A stretch of DNA of 64,000 nt from contig NZ_WKJO01000001.1 in assembly GCF_009674605.1 (NCBI RefSeq), positions 1,364,001-1,428,000 of the forward strand, in the 5' to 3' direction. A program made the position numbers and the translations under genes. Below the pieces are notes generated by a model. It ran no database searches. It had not been told where the DNA came from and worked only from the letters and a program-made list of their open reading frames with translations. This document shows positions 28,752 to 48,651 of the stretch, piece by piece; within the stretch, counting starts at the first letter, position 1, and each line of letters starts with the position of its first letter. Origin of the DNA: Haloferax litoreum. Lineage in GTDB: Archaea; Halobacteriota; Halobacteria; Halobacteriales; Haloferacaceae.

Positions 28752-29014
28752 ATAGTCAACGACGCGTCACAACCGGAGGTCAGGGACGGCCTTCGGAGGC
28801 ACCCCGGCGCGAACTCACAACTTCTAACAACGTATTGTCGACGAACTACTGGCCGGTGAATCGCACCACTGCAGTTTGTCGAACAGAGTTACGCCGAGTA
28901 CTACACCTGTTTAATACCTCTTTACAAGCATTTTAAATAGCCCTATAAGTCACTATTCAATAATGTCTAGAATAGTTATATTTATCTAACTGTCTGGTAA
29001 GTGTTTTGGCAGGA

Positions 29015-32000: not shown

Positions 32001-35000
32001 TCAGCGACAACGAACCCGAGCGAAAGGGTCACCTCTCCGAAATCCAGTCCGATGGGTCGTTCACCGTCGACGTCGAGACGAACGAATCGTTCGCTATCGG
32101 CTACACCCAGCGCGACGAGAACGGAATCGGTCCCCGCGACGGCATCGCCGACGTGTACCCCTTCGAGACAGTCGACGTCACGTCGGACACGGTGATTGGG
32201 TCGTACACGGCCCCGCAAGGGCACGTTCTCAACGTCACAGTCGAGAACCAGACTGGTGCTCCCATCGAGGGGGCGTCGGTGATGTTCCAACCGGAAGGTA
32301 ACGAAGCGTTCAACCCGATTACCGCGCCCGCGGTCACGAACACCGACGGCAAGGCTGTCGTCGGAAACACGACTGGCCTCGAAGCAACTGGCCCTGTCTT
32401 CGTCTACGCGACGCGACTGGGCCAGACCTACGACACCGCTACCGTGACGGTCACCAGTCCGACCGAGGTCACGCTGACCGTCCCTGACCCAGAGCGTGTG
32501 ACCGTCGACGGTCGGATACTCGACTCCGCCGGAAACCCGGCAGTCAACGACACACTGACGGTCTACTCGAACGAGGTCTACACCTACAACGACCCGATAG
32601 CGAGCGAGACGGTGACAGATACGACCGGCCAGTTCTCCACCACCGCCGCCGCGAACGTCACGCAGGAACTGCGATACTTCCAGGGGAACCTCGGTGACCG
32701 GAACGCCGGCAACCAGACGTTCTTCCCGACTGACGACACCCCTGACGTGTTTGCGGTCCAGACGCTCGATGGAACTGGCGACGCCCAACTTGGCGACATC
32801 ACCCTCCCGCAGGCATACCACGTCGAAATCGAAGTCGTGACGCCGAACGGCACGCCGGTCGAAGGCGCGACGGTCGACGTCACACACCAGAGTTCGAGTT
32901 CGGACGCCGACGCCCGGTACGATGGGGCCGAGACCAACGCGAACGGCCGCTACGAGATTCCGGCCAGTGACGGCACTGGCATCGACCTCGTCGGTTCCGT
33001 GGTGTTTGGCGTGTCTGGACCGAACGGCGAGTACGCCCGGAACGACACCACCATCACGCAGAACCAGACGGTGACCATCGAACTCGACGTCGACCAGCAG
33101 TCGGTTCCGTTGTCCCTCGCGGCCAACGCGACGACGATTCCGGCCGGCGAGGACGTTCGGTTCACCGTCACCGACGACGCGAACGACCCTGTGAACGAGT
33201 CGAACGTCACCGTCACGCTCCCCGATGGAAGCACACAGACGGTCCAGACGGACGCGAACGGTGAGGCGGTCTTCACGTCCACGACGACCGGTGACTACGC
33301 AGTCACGGCGTCGAAGAACGACACCGCAACCGAGGCGTACCAATCTGACTCGCTGACGGTTACGGCGAACGAACCCGGCCACGTCGTCGTCGAATCTGTC
33401 GACGTGCCGTCCGAAGTCGTTCGCGGCGAGGACGTGACAGTCGATATCACGCTCTCGAATCCCGGCGCGTTCGACGCGACGGACACGCTCGACGTGACTG
33501 GACCACTCGGTGTCGACACCACTGAGACGACACTCACTCCCGGCGAGACGCGAACGGTCGTTCGAACTATCTCCACCCAAGGGACGACGGCAGACACGCT
33601 GTCGCTCACGGCCGAAACGAGCAACAACTCGGTCTCCAACACGAGTACCATCCTCGAACCCGCGAACGTCTCGGTCGATGGCTACTCGCTCGTCGAGACG
33701 ACCATCCTCGCGAACGAACCCGTCAACGCGACGGCGACGCTCAACAACACCGGAGAGGTCGAAGGCACGTACGTCCTCAACCTCTCCGTCGATGGGTCGG
33801 TCGTCACCAACGAGACGGTGACCGTCGGACCACAGACCACGAAGACGGTGAACATCGCGACGCTCGTCGCGTGGGAAAGCGACGGCACGCACACCGTGTC
33901 GGTTGCCGACCGACCGTCTACGAGCATCACCGTCTTGCGCCCGACCAACCCGGACGCATCGGTGACCGTCACAGCACCGACCGACGGCGACGTCATCGGC
34001 AGCGGAACGGTAACGCTGACCTACGACCTCTCGAACGTGACGACCGGCATCAACCACACCGAGTACAGTGTCGATGGCGGCGCGTACCAGACGCTCACGG
34101 ACGGCCTCTCGACGACGAGTCACACGCTCTCGGTCGCTGACGGCGACCACGACGTCTCCGTCCGTCTCGTCGACAACCTCGGAACCGTCGTCGCCACGTC
34201 TAACCGGTCGTTCGCGGTCGATTCGGCCGCGCCGGTGGTCGGCATCTCGGCCGCCCAGACCGACGCAATCGGCGTGTCGAACCCGACTACCGTCTCTATC
34301 GAGAGTACGGACGCGAATCCGGGAACGACGACGTTCGCGGTCACGAACGCCTCCGGTCCCGTCTCCGAACGAGCAGTCACCGACGAGGTGGCAGACGGAA
34401 CCGCGACTATCTCGTGGAACGGGAGTCTCGCGTCGGGTACGGCCCTCGCGTCGGGCACGTACACGCTCGAAGTAACGAGTACCGACGCCGCGGGGAACGC
34501 GAACACGACGACGCAGACGGTCAGCGTCGACAACGACGCACCGACGGTCACCGCGACTGGCGTGACCGACGGGACAGAGACGACCACCGTCTACGTCAAC
34601 GACAGTGACACGCTCACTATCTCTGGCACGGCGAGCGACGCGGAGTCGACCCTCTCGAGCGTCGATGCCGTCGTCAGTTCTGATTCGACGGTGTTCGAAG
34701 AACGGTTCGACGCCACGCTCAACGGAGACGGTACGTGGTCTGCGACGGTCGCAGTCGACAAACTCCCCGACGACGGAACCTACACCGTCGGAGGTGTCGC
34801 GACAGACGCCGCGAACAACGAGGATTCGTCGCTGAACTCCTCGCTCACGGTCGTCGTCGACAGAGAGGCACCGTCGGTCGGTGCGGCCATCCTCAACGTC
34901 ACGTCGAACGAAGGCGTCGTGAACGTCACGGCGAACGAGGTGCTCGCAACAGCACCCGACGTGACGGTCATCAAACCGGGCGGGGCGAACGAATCAGTCA

Positions 35001-37183
35001 CGCTGACGCAGACTGCGTCTGGCTGGAACGGGACCTTCGCATACGACGGTGACGGCGAATACCGCCTCGTCGCCAACGCGACAGACCGCGCCGGAAACAC
35101 CGGCACTGCCGAAGCGACCGCACAGGTCCAGACGGACATCCAGACGGTCGACAAGACGGTCGTCCTCACGAACGGACAGAGTGGCACGTTCATCGAACTC
35201 CACACGAAGACCGACGTGAACGAAGCGTTCGGTGCACTCACCGAGAGTGACACCCCAGTCGGCGAACTGTCGAAGAAACTCTCGGGAAGCCAGTTCATCA
35301 AAGGTGAACTCGGCGACAAACTCGACCAGAACCTGTCGTACGCACTCGTCGGCATTCCGGTCGACAAGTCTCAGCTTGCGCAGGGTGTCACGCCGCAAGA
35401 CGTCGATATCCGGTACTTCAACGAGACGACCAAGGAGTGGGAACTCGTCGGCACCACGACGGTCGAGACGCTGAACGTGACCGGCACGCCAACCGAGTAC
35501 TACGTTGTCAACGTGTCGCACTTCTCGACGTACGGTGCGGTCGCACCCGACACCACGGCACCGTCCATCGACGATAGCGCGTTGTCCGGCAGTGGGTCGC
35601 CGTACGACTACAGCACCGACACGGTCGACGTGACGTTCGACTACAGTGACGCACAGAGCGGCATCAACACGAGCAACGTCACTGTCGCGCTCGACGGAAC
35701 AGACGTGACCGGCGACTACGCCGGCGACCTGCAAGTGACGAGTTCGTCGACGACGCTAACCGCCGTCGACCTCGTCGGGTCCGGTTCGCACGAGGTCACG
35801 CTGACCGTCACCGACGAAGCGGGTAACAAGCAGACGACGACCAAGTCGTTCACCGTCGAAGAAGACGAGACGGCACCGTCGCTGGACACGTCCTTCACCG
35901 ACGGCAAGACGTACGCCTATGGAACTGACTCGGTCAGTTTCGACCTGACCTACTCCGACACCGAAAGCGGTGTCGACACGAGCGGTGTCACGGTCGAATT
36001 CACTGATTCCAGTGGAACGACCGATGTCACTGCGCCCGCGACGGTCACGTCGTCCGGTGTCTCGTACACTGCGACTGACCTCACGGCCGGGACCTACACC
36101 ATCGAGGTGAACGTCCCCGACGGCGCAGGCAACGACAACACGACGACGAAGACGTTCACCATCGACGGCGACGACGCAAAGCCGACCATCGAGTCGGTGA
36201 CGCAGTCGCCGTCGCCGACGAGTGGCAGTCTCCTGCCAACGACGACTGAACAGGTGAAGACGTCCGTCGACTACACGGACAGCGAGAGTGGTGTGGACGC
36301 CAGCGCCATCACCGTCGAATTCGACGATGGGTCTGGCTTCACCGACGTGACGGACCAGGCGGTCATCACGTCGTCGCAAGCGAACTACACGGCGCTCGAC
36401 CTCGGCCCCGGTGCCTACACGGTCCGGGTGACGGTGGTCGACGCTGACGGGAACACGCGCGTGTCCGACCAGTCGTTCACCATCGGCACGGGCACCGCGC
36501 CGCAGATTACGGGGTCGTCGCTGACGCCGACTGCCTCGGGTAGCACGCTTCCAGCAGGAACGTCGCAGGCGACGATTACCGTCTCCTACGACGACGCGGA
36601 AGACGACGTCGACACCAGCGCGATTACGGCGACGTTCGACGGCAGCGACGTCACGTCGGACCTGTCGTTCGACGAGTCCGCCGGGGAGATAACCTACCAG
36701 GCGACTGGCCTCACCGACGGTAGCAGTTACACGCTGTCCGTCGACGTGGTCGATAGCGCGTCGAACTCGGACTCCACGTCGGTGACGTTCGACGTCGACG
36801 AGAGTTCCGACGACTCCTTCACGGGTGGGTCGGACTCCTCGTCGCCCTCGTCGAACTACGATGACGACGACGACAGTTCGAGTTCCCCGTCGTCCCAGTC
36901 GGAGACGACGGTGACGACCACGCCCGAACCGACGTCGACCGACCAACCTGCGGACGAACAGACTGACGGCGAGTCGGACACGACGACTGACGACTCGTCC
37001 GAGACCGAATCTGAGTCGACGCCGGACTCCGAGGCGCAGACGGCGACGACGACTGCCGAGTCGACGGCCGAAGAGGCCGCCGACGGGACGCAGACGACAG
37101 ACTCCGAAGCGCCCGGATTCGGCCTGACGACCATGCTCGGTGCACTGATTCTGGTGCTCGCGCTGGTCCGTCGCCGTCTGTAA
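29015..37183 (+). CDS. Giant PGF-CTERM surface protein (2722 aa)
   Basis: I start at ATG 29015; the frame extends to a TTG at 29006, which adds 3 residues. A signal segment (residues 1-32, TLTLILLVSTITGG) is followed by about ten carboxypeptidase-regulatory-like modules to about residue 1350. Then come a CARDB-like domain (SVDVPSEVVRGEDVTVDI), several Ig-like repeats, a PGF-pre-PGF-like domain around 2035-2180 and more Ig-like modules to about 2590. A Ser/Thr/Asp/Glu stalk leads to the C-terminal sorting signal PGFGLTTMLGALILVLALV plus RRRL. PGF-CTERM is cleaved and lipidated by archaeosortase ArtA, so the mature protein is anchored at the cell surface. Many N-x-T/S sites suggest N-glycosylation. 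A role in adhesion or the envelope is inferred. Confidence 0.93.
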   Translation: MNTQSARALTLTLILLVSTITGGVSVAGAASSSTVTVDGGFQYADGSTPTDAWSATLSGSSDYSDQIGTDGTFHIQAGANQTYNLSFEQYNPAYTSANYPQDGVADIYAITPVSPGATNTSVGNWTVPNATLVQVVVQNETGAPIQNAHIQIRHENNGSSAFASATTNANGELVLDTNDQTGVELTGAVDFAVYGPAGYGFNQTATTVTDNTTLTITLPTVATVDGTLSEPDGTAAANDSVLFERGSTGELVTTDSNGNFSVDLTPGQTYEWAYYQGQIDTPAPADGIPDFHTLGPVTADSGTTTLSGETLPSARNLTVNVVREDGTNVSGAMVTFSQAITVDGTSVRAGDDRTTNQDGLARIEVDGARTTDISVHAPSGSDLGSSHTETTADSDNDVTVVLKEEVFVNGTVSASNGISVENASVGIHGINGTTGAPSGILESDGSYAIPANTNGTYEVYFQQTNWQASAGHPKDGLADLAPIGVVETSTTDVDLGQFSVPKGHLVNVTVVDSSGTPVEGVDIIVEAKDADSVAESGEGATTNADGELVLDTATSPGVEAPNGTLGVYVSPADATLSDNNTEILVDGNRSVTLTLQEQSLVTGSVTALDGTPVSGKQVLLHGESGGSNVTTDTGTFTLGAEQDISYELGFRDFNQDEAIADYERNGIVDIYTMDNVSVESSETNVGDYRLPVAHAVNITVVNQSGAPVSGAPVYVQHVNGSADSGEYGHTDSNGMFVWDDASHVGAELNGTIGVHVEPGGSKWVDNDTEFTVTENGSYQIVVQEQREFTGRLVGPDGTPVSGAEVVVNTGGDFNYARSDAGGNFSIGLPTNETASLGIIESPNDEFTEIGQQDGVADVVKVTEFDTTGTTALGNLSVPVGHQTTIRAVDRYGNPVPNAPMLLRAVDALDDSAAWGWNDRTDADGYLRAKSNDYELNGTVKIVPDAPDGYTSVTGNETITVDSNQTHTFVFERQGEVVSVNGSITDADGNAIEGNVISDNEPERKGHLSEIQSDGSFTVDVETNESFAIGYTQRDENGIGPRDGIADVYPFETVDVTSDTVIGSYTAPQGHVLNVTVENQTGAPIEGASVMFQPEGNEAFNPITAPAVTNTDGKAVVGNTTGLEATGPVFVYATRLGQTYDTATVTVTSPTEVTLTVPDPERVTVDGRILDSAGNPAVNDTLTVYSNEVYTYNDPIASETVTDTTGQFSTTAAANVTQELRYFQGNLGDRNAGNQTFFPTDDTPDVFAVQTLDGTGDAQLGDITLPQAYHVEIEVVTPNGTPVEGATVDVTHQSSSSDADARYDGAETNANGRYEIPASDGTGIDLVGSVVFGVSGPNGEYARNDTTITQNQTVTIELDVDQQSVPLSLAANATTIPAGEDVRFTVTDDANDPVNESNVTVTLPDGSTQTVQTDANGEAVFTSTTTGDYAVTASKNDTATEAYQSDSLTVTANEPGHVVVESVDVPSEVVRGEDVTVDITLSNPGAFDATDTLDVTGPLGVDTTETTLTPGETRTVVRTISTQGTTADTLSLTAETSNNSVSNTSTILEPANVSVDGYSLVETTILANEPVNATATLNNTGEVEGTYVLNLSVDGSVVTNETVTVGPQTTKTVNIATLVAWESDGTHTVSVADRPSTSITVLRPTNPDASVTVTAPTDGDVIGSGTVTLTYDLSNVTTGINHTEYSVDGGAYQTLTDGLSTTSHTLSVADGDHDVSVRLVDNLGTVVATSNRSFAVDSAAPVVGISAAQTDAIGVSNPTTVSIESTDANPGTTTFAVTNASGPVSERAVTDEVADGTATISWNGSLASGTALASGTYTLEVTSTDAAGNANTTTQTVSVDNDAPTVTATGVTDGTETTTVYVNDSDTLTISGTASDAESTLSSVDAVVSSDSTVFEERFDATLNGDGTWSATVAVDKLPDDGTYTVGGVATDAANNEDSSLNSSLTVVVDREAPSVGAAILNVTSNEGVVNVTANEVLATAPDVTVIKPGGANESVTLTQTASGWNGTFAYDGDGEYRLVANATDRAGNTGTAEATAQVQTDIQTVDKTVVLTNGQSGTFIELHTKTDVNEAFGALTESDTPVGELSKKLSGSQFIKGELGDKLDQNLSYALVGIPVDKSQLAQGVTPQDVDIRYFNETTKEWELVGTTTVETLNVTGTPTEYYVVNVSHFSTYGAVAPDTTAPSIDDSALSGSGSPYDYSTDTVDVTFDYSDAQSGINTSNVTVALDGTDVTGDYAGDLQVTSSSTTLTAVDLVGSGSHEVTLTVTDEAGNKQTTTKSFTVEEDETAPSLDTSFTDGKTYAYGTDSVSFDLTYSDTESGVDTSGVTVEFTDSSGTTDVTAPATVTSSGVSYTATDLTAGTYTIEVNVPDGAGNDNTTTKTFTIDGDDAKPTIESVTQSPSPTSGSLLPTTTEQVKTSVDYTDSESGVDASAITVEFDDGSGFTDVTDQAVITSSQANYTALDLGPGAYTVRVTVVDADGNTRVSDQSFTIGTGTAPQITGSSLTPTASGSTLPAGTSQATITVSYDDAEDDVDTSAITATFDGSDVTSDLSFDESAGEITYQATGLTDGSSYTLSVDVVDSASNSDSTSVTFDVDESSDDSFTGGSDSSSPSSNYDDDDDSSSSPSSQSETTVTTTPEPTSTDQPADEQTDGESDTTTDDSSETESESTPDSEAQTATTTAESTAEEAADGTQTTDSEAPGFGLTTMLGALILVLALVRRRL

Positions 37184-37208: not shown

Positions 37209-37324
37209 ACGGCCTCCGAGTGCCAACGCACCCGATACGTGCCCGAGTTCGTGAGTCACCACGAAGCGACGGACAGTGAGACGACGCCGCCGCCTTTTTG
37301 CTATCTGGTCACCCACTGCACAGT

Positions 37325-37717
37325 ATGACCGTCGAAGAACTCTCACTCGGTGTCCCGAAACCCATCATCGACGCCCTGCCGGAGTCGGACGGCGCGGCCG
37401 CACAGGACATGCAGAAGGCCGTTCAGGGGCTCGAAACCCGGTTGAACCGTGCAATCGTCGACGCCGAGTCGGAGTCAGAAGCAGCCCAGTACGTCGTCGA
37501 CGCCATCGAGCGACTCGAAGACCACTACGAGAAGTACGACGAGTTCGTTCCCGAACTTCGCGCGTGGGGGCAGTCTCCAATTTACGCCATCGCGTGGCGA
37601 AACCTCCAGGGTGACCTCATCTTGCAGTTGCAGGAGTACGACTGGCTGAAACCGCACATCGACCGCGAACGGAACCTCCGAATGGTCGAAGACGGGATTC
37701 GGTTCGGAAAGCGGTAA
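37325..37717 (+). CDS. Conserved haloarchaeal hypothetical protein (130 aa)
   Basis: From ATG 37325 the product is helical and acidic, with GLETRLNRAIVDAESESEAAQYVVDAIERLEDHYEKYDEFVPELRAW and a basic C-terminus. No catalytic motif or known domain is recognised. Codon use matches core genes. The downstream 490 bases are A+T-rich and without genes. Confidence 0.75.
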   Translation: MTVEELSLGVPKPIIDALPESDGAAAQDMQKAVQGLETRLNRAIVDAESESEAAQYVVDAIERLEDHYEKYDEFVPELRAWGQSPIYAIAWRNLQGDLILQLQEYDWLKPHIDRERNLRMVEDGIRFGKR

Positions 37718-38207: not shown

Positions 38208-39131
38208 ATGGACGACTACGACGAGACGGAGTCACGTTCGTCGACGGGTGACTCCGACGAGGGGGACTCGTCGTCACTTGCAGATGTCGTCGAGGGACCC
38301 ACGTTAGACACGACTACGTTCGACGTGTCCCACGACGATACGGATGCGTACGACGATGCTTCGACGTCCGACGCGACTACAGACGCGTCGCTTTCAGACC
38401 TCGCCAACTCCCTTCGCGAGCGACGACCCCGCGGTGGCGAGAGCGAGGTGGCGGGCGACAGGACGACGAGGGACTGGAACTTCGTTCACGACATCAACAG
38501 TACCGAGCGTGAATCCAGTGGAACAGTCGACGTCGATTCTGGCGCGGGTGCTGTGCTCGACCAGGTCGAAGACGAGACCACGTTGCTCGTCGGGCCGGGT
38601 GGTCCAGTAGACGACCGTCTCTGTGAACGACTGATGTCCCCCGAGTCGACGGTGACGAATCACCACCAACTCGTGATATCGGTCGACGTGCCGCCAGCGG
38701 AACAACGCGATACCCTCCAGAGACTCCGGAGCGGTGCAGTTCACTCCCAGGCACTCGTCGATGCACAGTCGTACTCTGTATCCGGCGACGTCGCCGAGTA
38801 CGAGGGCGTCGAGGTGATGAACGTCGCTTCGCCGAGAGACCTCCGACGCATCGGTATCCTGACCACGAAGGTCCTGTCCAAGTGGAACGACGCCGGCGTC
38901 CCTATCTCCATCTGTTTCCACTCACTCTCGAACCTCCTCGACGCCGTGGGAGACACCCAGCGCGTCTTCCGGTTTTTACACATCCTCCACGGGCGGATTC
39001 GCGCCGCCGGTGGGCGTGCACACTTCCATCTCGACCCGACCCGCCACGACGAACAGACGGTCCGCACGTTCTACTCGCTGTTCGACGCAGTCGTCGAGTT
39101 CGACGCCGACGGGTCAGTCACACTCGTGTGA
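38208..39131 (+). CDS. RecA-superfamily-like hypothetical protein (DUF7504-like)
   Basis: The N-terminal 90 residues are disordered and Asp/Ser/Thr-rich. The rest, from TTLLVGPGGPVDDRLCERLM through LVISVDVPPAEQRDTLQRL and the final VFRFLHILHGRIRAAGGRAHFHLD, resembles the haloarchaeal KaiC/RecA-like proteins lacking a Walker A lysine. The match is by eye. It could act in signalling or chemotaxis-related control. Start ATG 38208 follows a TACTTTTTG box. Confidence 0.6.
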   Translation: MDDYDETESRSSTGDSDEGDSSSLADVVEGPTLDTTTFDVSHDDTDAYDDASTSDATTDASLSDLANSLRERRPRGGESEVAGDRTTRDWNFVHDINSTERESSGTVDVDSGAGAVLDQVEDETTLLVGPGGPVDDRLCERLMSPESTVTNHHQLVISVDVPPAEQRDTLQRLRSGAVHSQALVDAQSYSVSGDVAEYEGVEVMNVASPRDLRRIGILTTKVLSKWNDAGVPISICFHSLSNLLDAVGDTQRVFRFLHILHGRIRAAGGRAHFHLDPTRHDEQTVRTFYSLFDAVVEFDADGSVTLV

Positions 39132-39152
39132 GTTCACGTGACCGACCGAATA

Positions 39153-40211
39153 CTAGGAGAGCCACTCGAACTCGTTCCTGTTCGGTGACGACGTGTTTTC
39201 GGCCTGCGTGGCCTCTGATTCGGTCGCCGTCTGGTCTACATCTGCCTCCGTCTGGTCTACATCTGCCTCCGTCTCGCCGCCAGTATGCGACGGTTCTTCA
39301 CCGCCGTCACGCGTCCGTGTGTTCTCCTGTTCTGCGGTCGACGCTGGTTCGTCTGCTGTCTTCGACTGACCTGTCGTCTCCGTTGGAGATGCACCCGGTG
39401 ACCTTCCTGTCGTCGCCGTGTACGTCGACAGGAAGAACCAGGTCGTCTCTTCGGCCACACCGGTCAGTGTCCGGTTACAGTTCGGGCACTCGGGAGACGT
39501 GAGGAGCGTGAAGTCGACTGTTCCCCCGCACTGTTCACAGTCGGCGGTGTGGGTTCCGGCCTCACGTGCGGCCTCTCTGAGACGGCGCAGTTGGTCACGC
39601 TCGGCTCTGAGTTCTCTAATCTCCGCTTGGTACTGTGCCTGCGTCTCCGTGAGTCGAACGTCGAGTTCGTCGCCCGTTTGGACGAGATACTCGAGAATCG
39701 TCCGGAGGTTCTCGAACTCCTCGTCGAGTCGGGCCTGCAGTTGGGATTGCTCTGTTTCGAGTGTCGACCGAACGTCGTCGACGGTGTCTGTGAGTTCGTC
39801 TACGTCTTCGTAGCCGGCTTCCACGTCGTCCAGTCTGTCCGCGATTGATTGGACTTCCTCGGCGAGCGTCGAGCGCTGCCGTGACTCCGTCTGAAGTTCG
39901 GTCTGGAGTGACTCGACGCGTTGGACTAACTCGTCGAACTCGTCTTCGGTTACTGCGCCGTCCGTCATGGCTGCCTGCCCGTGTCGGTTGGCACCCGGTC
40001 GTTCACCACCTCCATCGTCGGCGAACATCGGCGTTCGGTTCCGCCCGTCCAACACCTGCGTGACTTCTTTGAGCGTCCAATACGAGTCGAGTAACTGCTC
40101 TAAGACGCGTTCTCGCGAACTGTCGGTTTCGGCGGCTTTCTGCGTCAACCAGTCCTCGAACGTCGAGGTGGCAATCTCTCGGTCACTCTGGTCCGACGAC
40201 TCGTTGGACAT
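39153..40211 (-). CDS. Coiled-coil protein with zinc ribbon (352 aa)
   Basis: From ATG 40211 (MSNESSDQSD) the protein has an N-terminal helical domain, then a long coiled coil from about EFDELVQRVESLQTELQTE to RAERDQLRRLREA. A zinc ribbon, CEQCGG and CPNC, follows, then a disordered acidic tail. The tail holds a tandem duplication of TEADVDQ, encoded by a perfect 21-base repeat at 39229-39270. The function is unknown. It is divergent from the DUF5305 gene with 119 bases between. Confidence 0.78.
   Translation of the reverse strand: MSNESSDQSDREIATSTFEDWLTQKAAETDSSRERVLEQLLDSYWTLKEVTQVLDGRNRTPMFADDGGGERPGANRHGQAAMTDGAVTEDEFDELVQRVESLQTELQTESRQRSTLAEEVQSIADRLDDVEAGYEDVDELTDTVDDVRSTLETEQSQLQARLDEEFENLRTILEYLVQTGDELDVRLTETQAQYQAEIRELRAERDQLRRLREAAREAGTHTADCEQCGGTVDFTLLTSPECPNCNRTLTGVAEETTWFFLSTYTATTGRSPGASPTETTGQSKTADEPASTAEQENTRTRDGGEEPSHTGGETEADVDQTEADVDQTATESEATQAENTSSPNRNEFEWLS
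39229..39270. repeat. Tandem 21-base repeat, two copies
   Basis: GTCTGGTCTACATCTGCCTC plus C is present twice head to tail without mismatch (39229-39249, 39250-39270), in frame within the acidic tail of the coiled-coil protein. Copy number could vary between strains by slippage. Confidence 0.9.
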
Positions 40212-40330
40212 CGTATGTAGACACGCTCTCTTTCGAGATAGTTCGGCTTCTAGGACAAAAGCTTTGTTCCGCGTTGACATACGCGCTACTATGAACCGGT
40301 CTCACTCGGAACTAGTTGCACTCCCCGACA

Positions 40331-41353
40331 ATGGCTGTTGAAGACCGCCTCAAACTGTTCGTCACACAGCAGGCACGGCCACTCGTCGTGCTCTTCGCAG
40401 TCGCGGGTCTCTTCTGTCTTCTCGGTGCAGGGTACGTTTTTTTCACACCGACGACACAGACTGTCTCCGAGGAGGTCAACGTCCAGACCATCGAGTCCTC
40501 GGTCGGAACGAGTGCCGTCGTCACTGGGAACTCCACCCTGTACGAACAGGGAGAGACCCTCGAAAACCGGTCTGCGTACTTCGTTCCAGTCACGCCAAAC
40601 CTCTCGTTTCACGCCGAGACGGACGTCCCACCGGGTCAGGACGTGACGGTCTCACAGCGACTCACGATGAACGTCGTCGGCGTGCGCGGCGACCAACCGT
40701 TCTACCAGTCTGAAGAGGTGCTCCTCGACGAACGACGCAGTGTCTCCGACGGGAGCGTCGCCGCGACTCGTTCGATAAACGTCTCGGCGATGCGCAAAGA
40801 CATTCAGACGAAACGGGCCGAGACAGACGGTGTCGGTCGGTTTCGAGTCTCTCTCGAACTGAACGTCACATACCAGACGGACTCGTACGAAGGGTCGCTC
40901 TCGACGAGTGCACCGTTCGTCATCTCCGGGCAGGCGTACTACCTCGACGGTGCAGTTGCCGACTCACAGACTCACTCGGAGACGGTGCAACGAGAGGTGC
41001 AGCGACCATCTGACCCCGCCGAGTATGGTGGGCTAGCGCTCGTCGGACTCGTCCTGTTCGGACTCTGTGGCGTCATCGTCCGTACCGAAGCGGTCAGTGA
41101 CCCCGAAGAACTTCGGACGCGTATCTCACACAGCAGGCACGACGAGTGGATTTCACGCGGTGAGTTCCCGACTGAGTCCGAAAAGCAGTACATCTCGATA
41201 CTCACGTTAGCGGACCTCGTCGACGTCGCTATCGACACCAATCGACGTGTCATCTACGACCCAGACATCGAAGTGTACGCTGTCATCGACGGCAACGAGA
41301 TTTACTACTACTCTCTCGGTGACCTCCACGCGCACGCCTGGTTGAACCTCTGA
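40331..41353 (+). CDS. DUF5305 family membrane protein
   Basis: From ATG 40331 (MAVEDRLKLFVTQQARP) the 340-residue protein has an N-terminal transmembrane helix (VVLFAVAGLFCLLGAGYVFF) and a second at about 235-255 (GLALVGLVLFGLCGVIV). The extracellular part between them is beta-rich, with TLYEQGETLENRSAYFVPVTPNLSF. It continues to a cytoplasmic tail ending YYYSLGDLHAHAWL. DUF5305 genes are often found beside archaeal signal peptidases, as here. A role in assembly or anchoring of surface proteins is inferred. Confidence 0.85.
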   Translation: MAVEDRLKLFVTQQARPLVVLFAVAGLFCLLGAGYVFFTPTTQTVSEEVNVQTIESSVGTSAVVTGNSTLYEQGETLENRSAYFVPVTPNLSFHAETDVPPGQDVTVSQRLTMNVVGVRGDQPFYQSEEVLLDERRSVSDGSVAATRSINVSAMRKDIQTKRAETDGVGRFRVSLELNVTYQTDSYEGSLSTSAPFVISGQAYYLDGAVADSQTHSETVQREVQRPSDPAEYGGLALVGLVLFGLCGVIVRTEAVSDPEELRTRISHSRHDEWISRGEFPTESEKQYISILTLADLVDVAIDTNRRVIYDPDIEVYAVIDGNEIYYYSLGDLHAHAWLNL

Positions 41354-41436
41354 GTGTGCACTCCTTCGGTCTGTGAGTGCTCGCGTCTTGCCTCCTCGTC
41401 TCACCCATTCGACTCTCGTCGGTCCTCGCCGCCTAC

Positions 41437-42009
41437 TCAGAGCGGTTCGTCGAGGTTTTCGAACCGGTACCGTCGATTCGCGAGGGCGTGGTACGCCGCC
41501 GAGACAGTGAACGCGGCGATGATTATCGTGGGATACACCAGCGTCGGCACCGCCCCAGTCGGGAGGACGTCCATCCAGAGTCCGACGACGACGAGACACG
41601 AGAGGAACGAGAGACCGAGATAGTACACACCCCACGGAATCGAGTTCTCGGGGACGATGTCGAGGTAGATGTCGAGTCGTTCGGTCTGATTCGTCAACTC
41701 GACCTCCCCGTTCTCGTACGTCACGATGCCCGCACGTTCGAGTCGCGGGAGGTGTGTCTGCTGGAGTGACGTGTACACCGTCTTCCGTTCTGCGGACCCG
41801 AGTTCGCTAATCGATTTGTCCTTCTCCCACGCGGCGACCTGTTCTGCGAGGTCGGAGAGTGAAACCGGGCCGTCCGCCTGTTTACAGTGGTGGATGGTGT
41901 ACCGCCGCCGGTGGTTACTCATGAGGTCGAATATCTCGTCTTTGGGGAGTCCTGTCTCCTCTTCGGGCGGTCGTCTACCGAGCAACCCACCCGCTCCGCG
42001 ATTGCTCAT
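41437..42009 (-). CDS. DUF7344-type HTH protein with membrane helices
   Basis: The 190-residue protein has an HTH part with DEIFDLMSNHRRRYTIHHCKQADGPVSLSDLAEQVAAWE and VYTSLQQTHLPRLERAGIVTYENG. Two transmembrane helices follow, around 125-145 and 148-170 (YLGLSFLSCLVVVGLWM, VPTLVYPTIIIAAFTVSA). This regulator is membrane-bound and lies at the end of the secreted-protein operon. It probably senses envelope state and controls the cluster. Confidence 0.86.
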   Translation of the reverse strand: MSNRGAGGLLGRRPPEEETGLPKDEIFDLMSNHRRRYTIHHCKQADGPVSLSDLAEQVAAWEKDKSISELGSAERKTVYTSLQQTHLPRLERAGIVTYENGEVELTNQTERLDIYLDIVPENSIPWGVYYLGLSFLSCLVVVGLWMDVLPTGAVPTLVYPTIIIAAFTVSAAYHALANRRYRFENLDEPL

Positions 42010-42085
42010 CTGTCACGTAAGTGTACAGTGTTCCAGTATTTATTTTCTCGCTTGCACGACATTCCGCTGACGTGCTACCTCGTCT

Positions 42086-42703
42086 TCACTGGTCGGGCCA
42101 CTCGGTGTGAACACGGACCGTCACGTCGTAGTCGTCGCTGGGTGGGAGGGCTTCGAGGGTCTCGCCCCGGCCGGTCGGAGTGAGGTCGACGCGGAGTCCG
42201 AACGGGACTGCTTCCCCCGGTTCGAGGACGCCATCTGCGACGGACGGTGACGGACTCACTGCGAGGAGATTGTCACCGGACAGCCCCGAGGAGTCGAGTG
42301 TGTCGCTCGCCGCTGTCGCCTGGAGTGTGGCCTCGATAGCGTCGAGCGTCGCTGCCGAGAGCGTATCGCTCGTGGCATCGAACGAGAAGTAGATTCCCAC
42401 GATGTCCTCTGTCCCGACGTTCGTAATCTGGACGATGTCTTCGAATCGCGTCACCGCTCTCGTGTTGAGTCCCCCGTCGTCGCCCCCGGGTGTGAGTGCA
42501 CTCACGTAGCCATCAGCATCTGTCTGAACGTGAACCGGTGGGTCGTTCGCTGGCGTCAACTCGATATCGCCGTCGGTCGTGTCGACGACGCGGAACGATG
42601 CGCCCGCAGACGACGAGACCACGACCGAGGCACCCGACCCGGCGATTCCACCGAGGACGAAGAGGTTGCCCATCGCGAAGAGTGTCTGGCGGCGAGTGGG
42701 CAT
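42086..42703 (-). CDS. Secreted DUF1102-like protein, third of the operon
   Basis: The 205-residue protein begins MPTRRQTLFAMGNLFVLGGIAGSGASVVVSS, with twin arginines and a GSGAS cleavage-like motif. The mature part resembles DUF1102/TasA-like proteins: FRVVDTTDGDIELTPANDPPVHVQ, then an FEDIVQITNVGTEDIVGIYF stretch. It is acidic and beta-rich. It is separated from the gene upstream by 29 bases, so it is in one operon. It is predicted to be a structural surface or fibre protein, but this is inference. Confidence 0.75.
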   Translation of the reverse strand: MPTRRQTLFAMGNLFVLGGIAGSGASVVVSSSAGASFRVVDTTDGDIELTPANDPPVHVQTDADGYVSALTPGGDDGGLNTRAVTRFEDIVQITNVGTEDIVGIYFSFDATSDTLSAATLDAIEATLQATAASDTLDSSGLSGDNLLAVSPSPSVADGVLEPGEAVPFGLRVDLTPTGRGETLEALPPSDDYDVTVRVHTEWPDQ

Positions 42704-42732
42704 GTGAAGTCCAGGTGAAGGGTTCTCGGGTC

Positions 42733-43389
42733 TTACTGTTGGTTCGCGACTGCGGTTACTTCGTCGACGAGGACCGTGTTCTCGCTGTCGCCAGCGAACG
42801 ACCCCGAAACCGAGTTCGCGATACTCGTTTTCTGTACGACTTTCAGACCGACCGTCTCCGACGTGCCTGCCGACACGGAGACGTAGTTCTGCGGGTCGTA
42901 CTGTGGGTCAGCCCAGTCGGAAGAGACTATGCTCTCCGGTGACCCGTGCGTGAATTGGAACGCTTCGACGACGTCCGATTTCGGGATACTGCCATCATCG
43001 ACGTCGGCACCGAACCCCGTGTACGTGAACCCGACGTCGTAGTCGGTGCCGTCGGTGTTGTTGTTCGTGAGTTTCAGGATGTCGCCGAAGTCGTGGTCCC
43101 GTGTCGCCGAAACCGCGACCTGAACGGTGACCATCTGCCCACCGTTCCCGCTAACGGTCGCCACCGGGAGGTCGTTCGGTTGGAGGGTCGCGAAGTCGAT
43201 AGATTGGTTCTTCTCGACGGTCGCCCCCAGCGAGTCTGCGGGGTCGATTCGGATGTCTGCCCCCGGCGAGACGACGCGGAAACTGCCGTCGCTGTTGTTC
43301 GAGACGACGTCGACTGCACCCGTCCCGAGTGCTGTTCCGACGCCGAAGGCGAGGGTGCCTACTGCGGTGAGGACGTTTCGTCGTTTCAT
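42733..43389 (-). CDS. Secreted DUF1102-like protein, second of the operon
   Basis: The 218-residue protein begins MKRRNVLTAVGTLAFGVGTALGTGAVDVVS, with twin arginines and the GTGA motif after a hydrophobic stretch. The mature region has FRVVSPGADIRIDPADSLGATVEKNQ and HDFGDILKLTNNNTDG, which match the domain of its neighbours. It lies 17 bases downstream of the first operon gene. A divergent 325-base region separates the operon from the signal peptidase. Confidence 0.8.
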   Translation of the reverse strand: MKRRNVLTAVGTLAFGVGTALGTGAVDVVSNNSDGSFRVVSPGADIRIDPADSLGATVEKNQSIDFATLQPNDLPVATVSGNGGQMVTVQVAVSATRDHDFGDILKLTNNNTDGTDYDVGFTYTGFGADVDDGSIPKSDVVEAFQFTHGSPESIVSSDWADPQYDPQNYVSVSAGTSETVGLKVVQKTSIANSVSGSFAGDSENTVLVDEVTAVANQQ

Positions 43390-43406
43390 GTGCTGTCGGG
43401 CTTCGA

Positions 43407-44030
43407 TTACGCTTGCTCTGCGACGATAGTGAGTTCACCGTCCGTACTTGGCGCACTCGCATTGCCCGTCGTATCGATTTTCACGTCCACGTTGGCGGAT
43501 TCGCCACTTCCAAGTATGGGTGTTCGACCGTCGTCGATGTAGGACGTCGTCCCATCGTCTGCCGTAGTATTCTGCCCCAAGTAGAACGTCACGACGATTT
43601 CTTCTGTTCCATCCGTATTCGAGATAGTGACGGATGCACTCCCAGACGACCCAGTCTGGTCTGGGTCCGAAAGACTGAGTTGAATATCCGGCGTCGTTCC
43701 CCCATCTGAATTCGCAACCGCGTTATTCGTAATCGTCAGGGCGTCTTTGATGGTCGTGACCGCGTTTTTGTTGAATCCGGAGGCAGTCGAACCGTCGCCG
43801 TCGGGGTCGAAATTGATGGTGAACGTATCGGTTCCGTCGTTTGGCGTATCGTCGGTAACGTACCCACTAGACGAATCGATCTGCAGGAATGCATTCCCGT
43901 CTCCTGCAGTGCTCACCGAAACCGTTCGCGCAGCACTCACAGACGAGAACGCACCCGTCCCGATGAGTGCGCCGCCGCCGCCAACAATCGCTCCAAGCCC
44001 GAGTAGTACATTACGTCGATTGATTGTCAT
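43407..44030 (-). CDS. Secreted TasA/CalY-like or DUF1102-like protein, first of the operon
   Basis: From ATG 44030 (MTINRRNVLLGLGAIVGGGG) the protein has twin arginines, a hydrophobic stretch and GTGAFSSVSAARTVSVSTAGD. Strong Shine-Dalgarno GAGGAG lies about 7 bases upstream. The mature part, with FTINFDPDGDG and DALTITNNAVANSDGG, is beta-rich and recalls the jelly-roll of TasA/CalY-type fibre proteins. With the signal peptidase opposite, it is a candidate substrate and a fibre subunit. Homology needs structural comparison. Confidence 0.75.
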   Translation of the reverse strand: MTINRRNVLLGLGAIVGGGGALIGTGAFSSVSAARTVSVSTAGDGNAFLQIDSSSGYVTDDTPNDGTDTFTINFDPDGDGSTASGFNKNAVTTIKDALTITNNAVANSDGGTTPDIQLSLSDPDQTGSSGSASVTISNTDGTEEIVVTFYLGQNTTADDGTTSYIDDGRTPILGSGESANVDVKIDTTGNASAPSTDGELTIVAEQA

Positions 44031-44355
44031 ATATCGTCTCCTCGACACGTCGATGTGTCGTTGTTCGACTCGTATGGACCACCCCTACTTTGTATTCACC
44101 TGCTTGAACGAGTCAAACCGGTCGGTTGACTGGTTCAAGCCTGCCTTTCCGTACGAGACAAGTCGGCGTCGTCTCTCGATTGGCCGCGCCAATGTGCACT
44201 GTTGTTCACCCGTGTACTGGATTGTGATAGTACATACTCTCCGTGTCGGACACGTGGTCGATGCCGTATCAGTTGCATCGGGTACCCCGCCCATACGTCG
44301 CCGCTGATTCGACGGGTCGTTTTATGACCACCAACGCCGTATCCGTCACCAACGC
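44031..44355. promoter_or_regulatory. Divergent promoter region between fibre operon and signal peptidase
   Basis: About 325 bases without a gene separate two divergent units. On the rightward side TTTTATGACC at 44312-44321 lies 30-40 bases before the signal peptidase start. On the leftward side GAGGAG sits before the first operon gene. A shared regulator site is likely but no clear palindrome is seen. Confidence 0.5.
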
Positions 44356-45516
44356 GTGAAGGTCTCGGAATTCGTCGAATACGCAGTGTTGGGTCTCTTC
44401 CTGATAGCCGTCGTTGCACTCCTCTTCGGGCAGGCACTCGGCCAACCCATCCTCCTCGGGTACGTCGAGACCGGAAGTATGGAACCGACGATGGAACCCG
44501 GCGATGGATTCGTCGCCGTCCCCTCGGTGCTGACCGACTCGCCAGACGCCGGCGACGTCGTCGTCTTCCGTTCCGAGGAACTCCACGGTGGCGGACTGAC
44601 GACCCATCGCGTGGTGAGACACACCTCCGACGGGTACATCACTCGCGGCGACGCCAACCCGTTCACCGACCAGGACAACGTCGAGCCACCGGTCACGGAC
44701 TCTCGAATCGTCGCCGAGGCACTCCAACTGAACGGCGAGGTGGTCGTCGTCCCCGGACTCGGAACGGGTGTGCAGACGATCCACGTGGCCGTGGGTGCTG
44801 TCGTCGGTGTCTTCGCTGGACTCCCCGGTTTTGAGTCGCTCCTTCGGGGAGAGTTCTCGCCGATGTTGCTCGTGGGAATCGGCGGGGGACTCATCGCCCT
44901 GAGCGTCGGCGTCGACTTATTCGGGAGTTCTCGACCCGCCGGAAAACGAACTCGTAGTCGGCCGAACTACGTCTCTATCGGCGTCGTACTGTTCGTCCTC
45001 GTCGTCCTCATCTCCGCGCCCGCGACGGTGAGTATGCTCTTCGGGTCGGGGACGACGACAGTCGACATCATCAGTTCGGAGTCGCCGGCCGAGAACCCAC
45101 TCGTCGTCGAACCGGGTGACGCGGCGACGGTCGAGTATCGCCTGACCAACAAGGGGTACATCCCGATGATGACCGTCGTTGAGTCGACGCACCCAGACGT
45201 CACGTTCGGCCAGTCAGTGTTCGTCGTCTCGGGTCAACAGAGTACGACGACGACGCTCTCGATTCGCGCACCGGAACAGACGGGAGCGTACACGCGAGAG
45301 ATTACAGAACAGCGGTATCTCCCGATTCTCCCGAAGTCACTCATCCTCGGCCTACACGACATCCACCCGTTGGTCGCAATCGCCGTCATCGACGCGCTTC
45401 TCGTGGTAGGGGCACTCGCTCTCGGTATCGTCACGCTGGGGATGACCCCGGTCCGGATGCGGACGGTGGGACGAAACATCTCGTTCGTCGAGCGACTGAA
45501 GCGGCGGTTCTTGTGA
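44356..45516 (+). CDS. Archaeal-type signal peptidase I with extra C-terminal domain
   Basis: The 386-residue protein begins at GTG 44356. It has an N-terminal helix, catalytic Ser41 in ETGSMEP, His84 in THRVV and Asp99 in RGDAN, the Ser-His-Asp set of ER/archaeal S26B peptidases. Unlike simple signal peptidases of about 200 residues, it continues with more transmembrane segments (PNYVSIGVVLFVLVVLISA, LVAIAVIDALLVVGAL). A beta domain between them (AATVEYRLTNKGYIPMMTVVES) recalls DUF5305. It should remove signal peptides of the neighbouring secreted proteins, like SipW does for TasA in Bacillus. Confidence 0.9.
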   Translation: MKVSEFVEYAVLGLFLIAVVALLFGQALGQPILLGYVETGSMEPTMEPGDGFVAVPSVLTDSPDAGDVVVFRSEELHGGGLTTHRVVRHTSDGYITRGDANPFTDQDNVEPPVTDSRIVAEALQLNGEVVVVPGLGTGVQTIHVAVGAVVGVFAGLPGFESLLRGEFSPMLLVGIGGGLIALSVGVDLFGSSRPAGKRTRSRPNYVSIGVVLFVLVVLISAPATVSMLFGSGTTTVDIISSESPAENPLVVEPGDAATVEYRLTNKGYIPMMTVVESTHPDVTFGQSVFVVSGQQSTTTTLSIRAPEQTGAYTREITEQRYLPILPKSLILGLHDIHPLVAIAVIDALLVVGALALGIVTLGMTPVRMRTVGRNISFVERLKRRFL

Positions 45517-45522
45517 CGGCGG

Positions 45523-46641
45523 TCAGTCGCTGACCTGTCCACTACTCGGGGTGCCAACCACCGTGAGTCCACTCGGACTGTAGACGAGTGTGTCGTCCTT
45601 GTCACTGACGTCGAGACCAGTCACGTCGAGTGTCGATGCTGTGGACCCGAGGTCGGCGGTCACTGAATCCCTGCCATTGCCATTCTTGTTCGTGCTCGAC
45701 AACCGTGCCTGACGGACGAAGATGTCACCGTCAGCGGCGAGAGAGATGCCATCTGTCGTCTCCATCTCCGTCTGATTCGCGTGGAGGTCCCCTGCCGACG
45801 TGACGCTAATCGAGTGGTCACTCAGGAGTGTCGTCCCGGTGATATCGACGTCTCCGGACGTGCTCGTGAGCGACATCTTGGCGTTCTTCGAGTCGAACGT
45901 CGTCTCAGTCATCGTAATCGACTCGGCCGTGATAGAGACGTCGCCGTTCTTCCCGTTGATGGTCGTACTGGCAATCGTGACCGAGGCTGCGTCGATGTCG
46001 ATTCCGTCTTGGTAGAACGTCCCGTCGTCGGTGCTGATGACGATGTCCGCAGTTTCGTTGTCGAAGTTTTCGAGTTCGGAACCGGTCAGTGTTTGTTCAC
46101 CCTCGTCGTACTGGCCGTTGCCGTTCGTGTCGATGTAGCCATCGCTTCCGTCGGGGGCGCTGGACGGTGGGCCGCCACCCGGGCAGTCGTAGTTCACGGG
46201 CGTTTTCAGGATTGCATCGGTGACTGTCGTTGCCGACGCTTCTGCGCGAGTGACTGCCACCGTCAGCGTCGCTGTATCGGGACCCCCACCCGACGACGCT
46301 GTACAGGACAGTGAGAGCGGTTCTCTCCCGCCACTCTGGAGTGTTGGCGTTCCAGACGCCGTCTCGACCGTGAGCGCGTCCGAAGCAGTGCTCACTTCGT
46401 ATTCGACAGTCGCATCCGAGTCGAGGTTGTTCACGAGCGACGCGACGTGCGTTGGTTGCCCGGTACTGTTTACCTCGTTTCCGGTCGCCTGGAGCGCAAT
46501 CAGTGCGCTTTCGTCTGCTGCGACCGAGACACCGACGGCCCGTTCGCCAGCGATAGTGCTGTAGCTTCCTGTCGGGACTACAGCGAGCATCATCCCGAGT
46601 GCGACGAACACCACTCCAATGTGCCGTAGCGTCCGATTCAT
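45523..46641 (-). CDS. Secreted beta-rich protein of the fibre cluster (372 aa)
   Basis: From ATG 46641 (MNRTLRHIGVVFVALGMM) the signal ends near VVPTGSYST and continues with IAGERAVGVSVAADESALIAL, a motif like that of the first operon gene (GAFSSVSAARTVSVSTAGD). Residues after about 150 include an EF-like DTNGNGQYDEGE stretch. A C-terminal repeat-rich region follows (ITAESITMTETTFDSKNAKMSLTSTSGDVDIT), as in beta-helix adhesins. It converges with the signal peptidase gene. It is probably a surface or fibre-associated protein. Confidence 0.78.
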   Translation of the reverse strand: MNRTLRHIGVVFVALGMMLAVVPTGSYSTIAGERAVGVSVAADESALIALQATGNEVNSTGQPTHVASLVNNLDSDATVEYEVSTASDALTVETASGTPTLQSGGREPLSLSCTASSGGGPDTATLTVAVTRAEASATTVTDAILKTPVNYDCPGGGPPSSAPDGSDGYIDTNGNGQYDEGEQTLTGSELENFDNETADIVISTDDGTFYQDGIDIDAASVTIASTTINGKNGDVSITAESITMTETTFDSKNAKMSLTSTSGDVDITGTTLLSDHSISVTSAGDLHANQTEMETTDGISLAADGDIFVRQARLSSTNKNGNGRDSVTADLGSTASTLDVTGLDVSDKDDTLVYSPSGLTVVGTPSSGQVSD

Positions 46642-46793: not shown

Positions 46794-47189
46794 CTACGAC
46801 ACCTGCGACTCGAACCACTCGCTCGCGTCGGTGACGACGTCGAACAACCCGTCGGCCACCGATTTGTCGGCCGGGAGTTCGACACACCACGTCACCTGCG
46901 TCTGTGCCGCTTGCAGGTTGGTCATGGTGTTTTGGACACGCGACGCGAGGACGACGGGCACCGCAGCGTCGAATCGGCGGATTGTCTTCACTGCCTCGAT
47001 TCCGTCGTATTGCGGTGGTGCGTGAAGACAGAGGACCAACTGTGGTCGCCGTGTCGTCAGTCCTTCGAGCAACTCGTGGTTCGAGTTGGTGTACCGCACG
47101 TCGACGCCGCTCGCAACGTCCCACGCTTCGTCAGGTGGTTCCCCATAGGTGAGTACCTGTGGTGTAACCTCTCCGGTAGTTTCTGACAC
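46794..47189 (-). CDS. Degenerate receiver-domain protein (CheY-like)
   Basis: The 131-residue protein aligns by eye with receiver domains over PQLVLCLHAPPQYDGIEAVKTIRRFDAAVPVVLAS. The phospho-acceptor Asp position is Leu (LVLCLH), and the conserved KP Lys is replaced by Glu (CVELPAD). It therefore cannot be a normal phosphorelay target. It may act by protein binding alone. It is transcribed leftward from its own start; no histidine kinase is nearby. Confidence 0.78.
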   Translation of the reverse strand: MSETTGEVTPQVLTYGEPPDEAWDVASGVDVRYTNSNHELLEGLTTRRPQLVLCLHAPPQYDGIEAVKTIRRFDAAVPVVLASRVQNTMTNLQAAQTQVTWCVELPADKSVADGLFDVVTDASEWFESQVS

Positions 47190-47266
47190 GCAGTCGTACT
47201 TCTCGGATGAGACGTATGATTGTTTCTATGGTCGTGAGAACTGCCGATGGACCTCGGTGTGCGCCG

Positions 47267-48651
47267 TTAGCGCGACAGTTCGGGTGTCTGGACCGTCAAA
47301 TCGTACGTCGCGACGGCCCCTTCGAGTGTGGCGTCGGTGAGTGATGGCTCGCTATCGAACCGTGCACACGTGAATCGCGCTGGTCCGTGGACGGTGGTCT
47401 CTGTGAACCCCGCACGCTCGGTGACGTACGTGTACGCGAAGTCGAGTCGGCCACCGATTTCGACACCGAATTCGAGCGCCGTGATGGTACAGTCGGAGAC
47501 GTCGACGTTCTCGTTCACTCGCGAGGTGTTCCAGTACATCTCGCCGTCGACGGTCGCGTGGTCGCAGACGACGTCTCGCCCGACGGTACTCTCGACCATT
47601 CGGAACTGCGACTGCGGCGTAAATCGTGCGCCCGAGAACGAGAGCGTCCCCGCGATGGCGGCGCGGACGAACGATATCGTCCTGTCGAAGTGAGCGTTCT
47701 CGAACGAGAGACGCGGACTATCGACTGTCGACGCGTCGAAGTACACCGCGGCGTCGAACGTCGCGTAATCGAACACGAGGTGGCCGTCGGCAGTAGTGAG
47801 TTCGGTGAAGTCGACTTCGTCGTCGAACTGGCTACTCGTCGCGTCGACACCGTTCGCGACGTGAAGTCGCGCCGCGTCGACCGTCCCACACGCGTGGAGG
47901 TGGCCGAGCGAGAGTCCATCCTGGACTGTCGTGTCCCGGAGTGTGACGTCGCCACCCACCCGGCAATGAGAGAGCGATAGCCGGTCGCGAAACTCTGCTG
48001 CTCCGGCGTCCAAGTGGTCGCCGACGTGTGTATGTGAGAGCCAGACTGGGCCGTCGACCTGCGCCTGCGTGAGGTCGATTTGTTCGTCGACTGTCGCCTT
48101 TCTAAGCGAGATGCCACCGGTGGCGCGGATACCGGTGGCGAGGAACGACGTCCCGCACCCCCCGAACGCATCGAGTCTGCCATCGATGGTCGCATCGTAG
48201 AGCAACCACTGCCGGCCAGTCTGGAGGTGTCGACAGGAGAGGTCGCCCTTCGCGTCGAGTCGCTGCATGGACAGTGTCCCCCGACCGTCGCCGCGTCTAA
48301 TCGGAGTGTGGCGTCCACAGTCGCCTCACTGAGGTCGAGTTCGTCTCGGACGAGCACGTCGCGGAAGTCGACAGCTTCGTCACTTCTGAGCGTCTCACCC
48401 GCGAGGTCGAGCGTGTCGAACTGCGCACCGACGAACGCCGAGGGCCGGTCGGGGTCGTCGATCGTCTCGCGGAGCGCCGTCGTGACCGTCTCGGTGTCTT
48501 TAGATTCGACCGACTGATGGAACACACAGTACTCGGCATCACTACTCACTGGGTGTGGACAGTGCCACACGTCTCGGTCAACCGTCTCTGTCTGTCCATT
48601 CTTCTCAGGTGAACAGTCGTGTTCGTATGCACAGCGAAGCGACTCAGCCAC
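47267..48651 (-). pseudogene. Pentapeptide/beta-helix-like protein gene with frameshift
   Basis: The first part (from ATG 48651) has a Cys/His pattern (CAYEHDC, WHCPHP, YCVFH) and ends its good frame at about 48283 with RLDAATVG. The rest continues in another frame from about 48268, MQRLDAKGDLSCRH, to 47267, with repeated beta-helix motifs such as VDFTELTTADGHLVFDYATFDAAVYFD. Adding one C to the CCCCC tract at 48278-48282 restores one frame (VGGTLSMQRL). It is a frameshifted gene, a phase-variable gene, or a sequencing error. Intact, it would be about 460 residues. Confidence 0.82.

Follow-up and report, generated by a model that had tools for sequence, protein, structure and literature searches.

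The window considered here, the whole stretch of 64,000 nucleotides from Haloferax litoreum that was analysed (1,364,001-1,428,000 on its contig), contains a cluster of genes for an ER-type signal peptidase (SP), four secreted proteins (S1–S4), an HTH protein with membrane helices, and a DUF5305 membrane protein (Table 1). All seven ORFs were found where an earlier note on this DNA had placed them. On the minus strand, S1, S2, S3, and the HTH gene follow one another with gaps of 17, 29, and 76 bp; because the HTH gene lies directly after S3, on the same strand and across that last short gap, we assign it to the S1–S3 operon. SP and S1 are divergent, with ~325 bp between them, S4 and SP are convergent and separated by 6 bp, and the DUF5305 and HTH genes converge as well. 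Translation of S1 most likely starts at the ATG at 44030.

Table 1. Genes of the locus, with their positions in the window and the evidence for each description.
Feature	Coordinates	Strand	Evidence
SP: ER-type (S26B) signal peptidase, 386 aa	44356-45516	+	TIGR02228, hydropathy, catalytic residues
S1: likely major fimbrial subunit, Tat-type signal, beta-sandwich	43407-44030	-	TafE/TafA, 9p0a, AF2 model
S2: minor Tat-type secreted subunit	42733-43389	-	TafE 1e-5, TafA 1.2e-4, RR...GTGA
S3: minor Tat-type secreted subunit	42086-42703	-	TafE 1.8e-8, RR...GSGA
HTH: DUF7344 winged-helix putative regulator with membrane helices	41437-42009	-	PF24035 E=7e-28, hydropathy
DUF5305 membrane protein: two membrane helices, outer beta domain	40331-41353	+	PF17231 E=1.4e-49
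S4: TafC-like N-terminal domain, linker, and variable beta-solenoid	45523-46641	-	NF052521, profile-profile, AF2
Coiled-coil/zinc-ribbon protein, same presence/absence cassette	39153-40280	-	
DUF7504 protein, same presence/absence cassette	38208-39131	+	PF24336 4.6e-34

SP is an S26B signal peptidase, as the earlier note had recognised: it scores 57.9 bits on TIGR02228 (archaeal signal peptidase I), above the cut-off of that model, and its Ser41, His84, and Asp99 are invariant among 12 relatives. Hydropathy indicates about five hydrophobic segments and a C-terminal membrane helix. The extra beta domain that had been noticed on SP looks Ig-like and occupies residues ~230–325 (from a reading of the sequence and a weak Pfam Ig match); the DUF5305 and HTH proteins likewise proved to be what they had been taken for (PF17231 and PF24035). 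Compared with the SipW model NF046067, SP reaches E=2.9e-7, below that model's 190-bit cut-off; among solved structures, a profile search retrieved human SEC11A/C as its only relatives (E=0.011). SP looks dedicated, since the host genome has two further TIGR02228 genes outside the locus and TafE-type matches (E<=1) only inside it; it is an additional gene copy, probably serving this locus. A dedicated SipW-type (Ser-His) peptidase, which is expected of TasA/camelysin fibres, was found here.

The three secreted proteins encoded divergently from SP do carry RR signals, ending in GTGA (S1), GTGA (S2), and GSGA (S3). Their earlier description as TasA/CalY-like did not hold: the nearest relatives are the haloarchaeal Taf families, which NCBIfam lists as NF052520-NF052523 (TafA, TafC, TafE, and TafF). 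S1 matches TafE at 3.7e-18 and TafA at 4.8e-9, and TafE is matched by 62/62 members of the S1 family profile. As a single sequence, S1 matches PDB entry 9p0a (‘Pilin’) at 6.4e-13 and 52 bits, diverging over much of the chain, whereas the profile of 62 sequences covers the whole mature 9p0a chain (E=1e-21, among PDB sequences), and the S1 family has the same signal and N-terminal strand motif. The remaining PDB matches of this profile are cellulose-binding domains at E 0.004 or worse, and TasA, CalY, and AbpA gave no match to it among PDB sequences at E<=10.

The AF2 model of S1 (62 sequences) is a beta-sandwich with a mean pLDDT of 76 and a pTM of 0.73, and its N-terminus is loose, with residues 1-7 and 16-18 unplaced. 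A Foldseek comparison of this model with PDB folds yielded weak matches only; type 1 pilus subunits, FimA among them, rank highest (best E=0.015, TM ~0.4), and TasA is not among the best 50. The subunit homology that characterises TasA/camelysin fibres was thus not found by sequence (S1 profile against the PDB), and the fold matches are weak. Nor are the four secreted proteins equivalent: S1 is likely the main subunit, S2 and S3 resemble TafE and would be minor components, and S4 is TafC-like and has a beta-solenoid. A single-sequence scan of genomes with S1 gave no confirmed match. Pfam matches of S1–S4 to P7_N_core, CHRD, and Pheromone, all with E above 0.03, were rejected as chance.

S4 matches TafC (NF052521) at 1.3e-4, and profile-profile comparison of its N-terminal domain with the TafC domain gave 93.4% and 2.5e-7; this domain carries a conserved Cys pair, and the signal before it is without RR. 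The PTGS^YS end reported for S4 is present, but the following segment, said to be shared with S1, reads A-G-E-R-A-V-G-V, with G at the ‘A’ place. In its AF2 model (9 sequences, pLDDT 86), a loose N-terminus is followed by an Ig-like domain (~22-126), a linker, and a beta-solenoid; the Ig domain matches PapD/Caf1M-type and other Ig folds, these matches being generic. Long forms of S4 in Haloferax and Halobellus show a solenoid period of 43-44 residues (~390 residues); the solenoid is shorter in the window and in one further genome (G005), whereas Hfx. marinum and Hfx. profundi lack it. Canonical TafC has a laminin-G lectin domain after the N-terminal domain, and long secreted proteins at other loci carry CARDB (25/50), laminin-G, or beta-helix-type domains. 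S4 is likely a TafC-like end piece or adhesin with a different distal module.

After its signal, S1 begins with the N-terminal putative donor-strand motif FSSVSAARTVSV. The consensus GTGA F[ST]SVxAxRxVxVxV was found in 141/227 related secreted proteins, 128 of the 141 having RR or KR upstream; in this set, G-T/S-G-A closes the signal and F-S/T-S-V-x-A-x-R-x-V-x-V-x-V comes next. Because the sequences were taken from family matches, this count is partly circular and describes the family rather than providing an independent test. Alignment A2 has R8 as its sole invariant column, with F1 at >=90%. A strict motif regex over the window matched S1 only; it was too strict and is superseded by the consensus count. 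A donor-strand pilin would have an N-terminal strand lying outside its own fold and bearing alternating conserved residues; the consensus F..V.A.R.V.V.V and the low-confidence N-terminus of the single-chain S1 model may reflect such a strand. Donor-strand assembly of TasA/TapA and the dedicated SipW have been described (PMC10151520, PMC9674648, PMC10269814); the mature ends of TasA and TapA are AFNDI and AFHDI (PMC10151520), and an aromatic residue at P2' is one reason that LepB cuts TasA poorly while SipW cuts it (PMC10269814). If S1 were cut before A, it would start with AFSSV and have F at P2' as in TasA; a cut before F is the alternative.

The linkage of these genes in other haloarchaea, raised in the earlier note as a check, was borne out. 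With the SP profile as the sole query, 80 named loci were retrieved, of which the 58 full-length ones were used for linkage counts: family secreted proteins occur at 55, the DUF7344 HTH protein at 50, DUF5305 at 49, and all of these together at 44. At 33 of the 58, DUF5305 is the next gene after SP and shares its strand; with typically 1-2 copies per ~3.6 Mb genome, fewer than one of 58 loci would be expected to have DUF5305 by chance. The recurring cleavage/strand consensus, together with linkage so far above expectation, argues that the observation is not a chance one.

The locus behaves as a cassette, being cleanly missing in three Haloferax relatives (G001, G003, and G014), in which the flanks at 37285-37711 and 46801-47036 are separated by ~0.87-0.96 kb (G001: 941 bp) versus ~9.1 kb. 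This spacing also means that, in this comparison, the DUF7504, coiled-coil, and fimbrial genes are present or absent as a block. The DUF7504 and coiled-coil/zinc-ribbon genes recur near SP at 11 and 7 of the 58 loci, respectively; as a pair (38208-40280), they accompany the cassette in Haloferax and Halobellus, and they are also found near such loci in other genera. Genes for a receiver-domain protein and a quasi-pentapeptide/bactofilin-looking repeat protein (46794-48268, minus strand) flank the cassette and are kept where it is missing. At 29006-37183 on the plus strand lies the gene for a secreted surface protein of 2725 aa, which contains six CarboxypepD_reg and several Ig-like repeats and whose end resembles PGF-CTERM; it is absent from this site in the same three relatives, where the equivalents of 28811 and 37285 are ~90 bp apart.

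The locus agrees with the broad Taf family both in subunit homology (S1 to TafE at 3.7e-18, S4 to TafC at 2.5e-7) and in its cluster of an ER-type SP, a DUF7344 HTH protein, and DUF5305. Canonical Taf loci (L135 of Haloferax elongans, L043, L058, and L074) hold the same partners in one cluster and share the TafA/TafE-type Tat proteins and the TafC-type N-terminal domain. In contrast to them, the locus described here has three tandem small subunits, another gene order, and an S4 with a beta-solenoid in place of the laminin-G lectin; TafF was not detected in the host genome, where the search controls were also silent, though the same model matches L043 and L058. The curated cut-offs were missed throughout (best TafE 65.9 versus 155, TafA 36.5 versus 190, and TafC 21.2 versus 410). 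Since all Taf scores lie under these cut-offs and TafF was not detected, we regard the locus as a Taf-like variant, best called a Taf-like, peptidase-primed predicted fimbria of the Haloferax/Halobellus type. A search of a limited set of literature found no paper on TafA/C/E/F or DUF5305; the Haloferax/Halobellus variant may already be described.

The predicted extracellular fibre with a SipW-like peptidase that the earlier note had proposed is thus backed by Taf and 9p0a homology and by conserved linkage. We put at about 80% the probability that these genes specify peptidase-primed, donor-strand-assembled fimbriae with S1 as the main subunit and S4 as an exchangeable end piece. Counted in favour were the Taf homology of S1–S4, the full-length 9p0a alignment, the linkage, the apparent dedication of SP, the consensus, the loose N-termini of the S1 and S4 models, and the published account of TasA/TapA and SipW; counted against were the weak Foldseek matches of S1, the generic Ig matches of S4, and the sub-cut-off Taf scores.

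Strand-exchange assembly and the place of S4 at the fibre end are what we infer from homology. S1–S3 would be exported folded via Tat, and S4 possibly via Sec. The dedicated SP would cut at the GT(G/S)A-F site, which, like that of TasA, may be a poor substrate for general signal peptidases because of its aromatic residue. Once released, the N-terminal strand of one subunit (F-x-x-V-x-A-x-R-x-V-x-V-x-V) would fill the groove of the next, and S1 would thereby polymerise by donor-strand exchange. S4, the Ig-like domain of which looks complete, would give a strand and take none, sit at one end, and start the fibre, its beta-solenoid pointing outward to serve in adhesion or as a spacer. The base of the fibre would hold S2/S3 and DUF5305 as minor or anchoring subunits, DUF5305 perhaps being an anchor or assisting assembly, and regulation of the gene set would fall to the membrane HTH protein. 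A bolder version, which we consider distinctly unlikely, makes the Ig-bearing SP itself the assembly platform coupling cutting with strand exchange; fibre identity would then depend on which end piece a shared TafC-like initiator carries (a laminin-G lectin, a beta-solenoid that varies in length, or no end piece at all), these pieces being interchangeable, and adhesion specificity would be swapped via the distal module or the whole cassette.

Whether such a fimbria would share ancestry with the Bacillus fibre and with Pyrobaculum bundling pili, as a true TasA/CalY (camelysin) matrix fibre, is a sub-question that does not exclude fimbriae, and we hold this homology to be unlikely. Both the locus and B. 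subtilis TapA-SipW-TasA have a dedicated ER-type peptidase and G-T-x-A-(A)-F before the N-terminal strand (donated in TasA), with an aromatic residue by the cut and beta-rich subunits, and TapA is a complete-Ig initiator comparable with S4 (PMC10151520). Yet the S1 profile finds no TasA, CalY, or AbpA sequence, the weak fold list is headed by FimA-type pilins, and, unlike the B. subtilis system, the locus has Tat-type signals on S1–S3, an extra Ig domain on SP, and DUF5305 and HTH partners, sequence homology being undetectable; the resemblance to TasA is confined to logic and the cleavage-site motif. Chaperone-usher pili (FimA, Caf1M/PapD) are weakly similar in fold, S1 resembling FimA and the S4 Ig domain resembling PapD-type chaperones, but the locus has neither usher nor periplasmic chaperone and no sequence homology.

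The SP-processed proteins might instead form a non-filamentous coat or matrix, staying S-layer-associated or acting as a soluble adhesive. That this locus is known from its genes alone, that S2–S4 fall far under the Taf cut-offs, and that paralogues at other loci are highly variable would fit such a coat; S1, however, shares a family with a solved pilin along its whole mature length, and its loose N-terminal strand and motif suit strand exchange, which makes the coat quite improbable. ER-type signal peptidases can be general, and SP could accordingly serve mainly other exported proteins, its neighbours being incidental. With secreted proteins linked to it at 55/58 loci and two more signal peptidases elsewhere in the genome, this seems hardly credible.

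DUF5305, a marker of loci of this kind, is present in 321/391 Halobacteria genomes, so in about four-fifths of them, and many haloarchaea may therefore make strand-exchange fibres. In Hfx. volcanii, neither a TafE nor a DUF5305 match was found, although a signal peptidase was detected there; this apparent lack may be one reason for the little attention such fibres have received in that species. The predicted fimbria would be a separate form of an archaeal fimbria that received its name only recently, and its end piece varies among species; the clean presence or absence of the locus in Haloferax, its probably dedicated peptidase, and the putatively swappable end piece make usher-free assembly and species-varying binding directly testable. 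In the SP tree, the window groups with Haloferax and Halobellus (100/99), and Hfx. elongans, of the canonical Taf type, is on a distant branch, which gives two types within Haloferax. The window's type is also carried by Haloferax gibbonsii, a species open to genetic work. A haloarchaeal-type locus in a MAG labelled Mollicutes (L097, PULR01000059.1) groups with Natronomonas in this tree, and that bin is probably mislabelled or contaminated. Two loci, L036 (G003) and L067 (G034), have a divergent, shorter SP (~330 aa) on a long branch of the tree, beside a DUF5305 gene, and are possibly a further subtype of the fimbria system.
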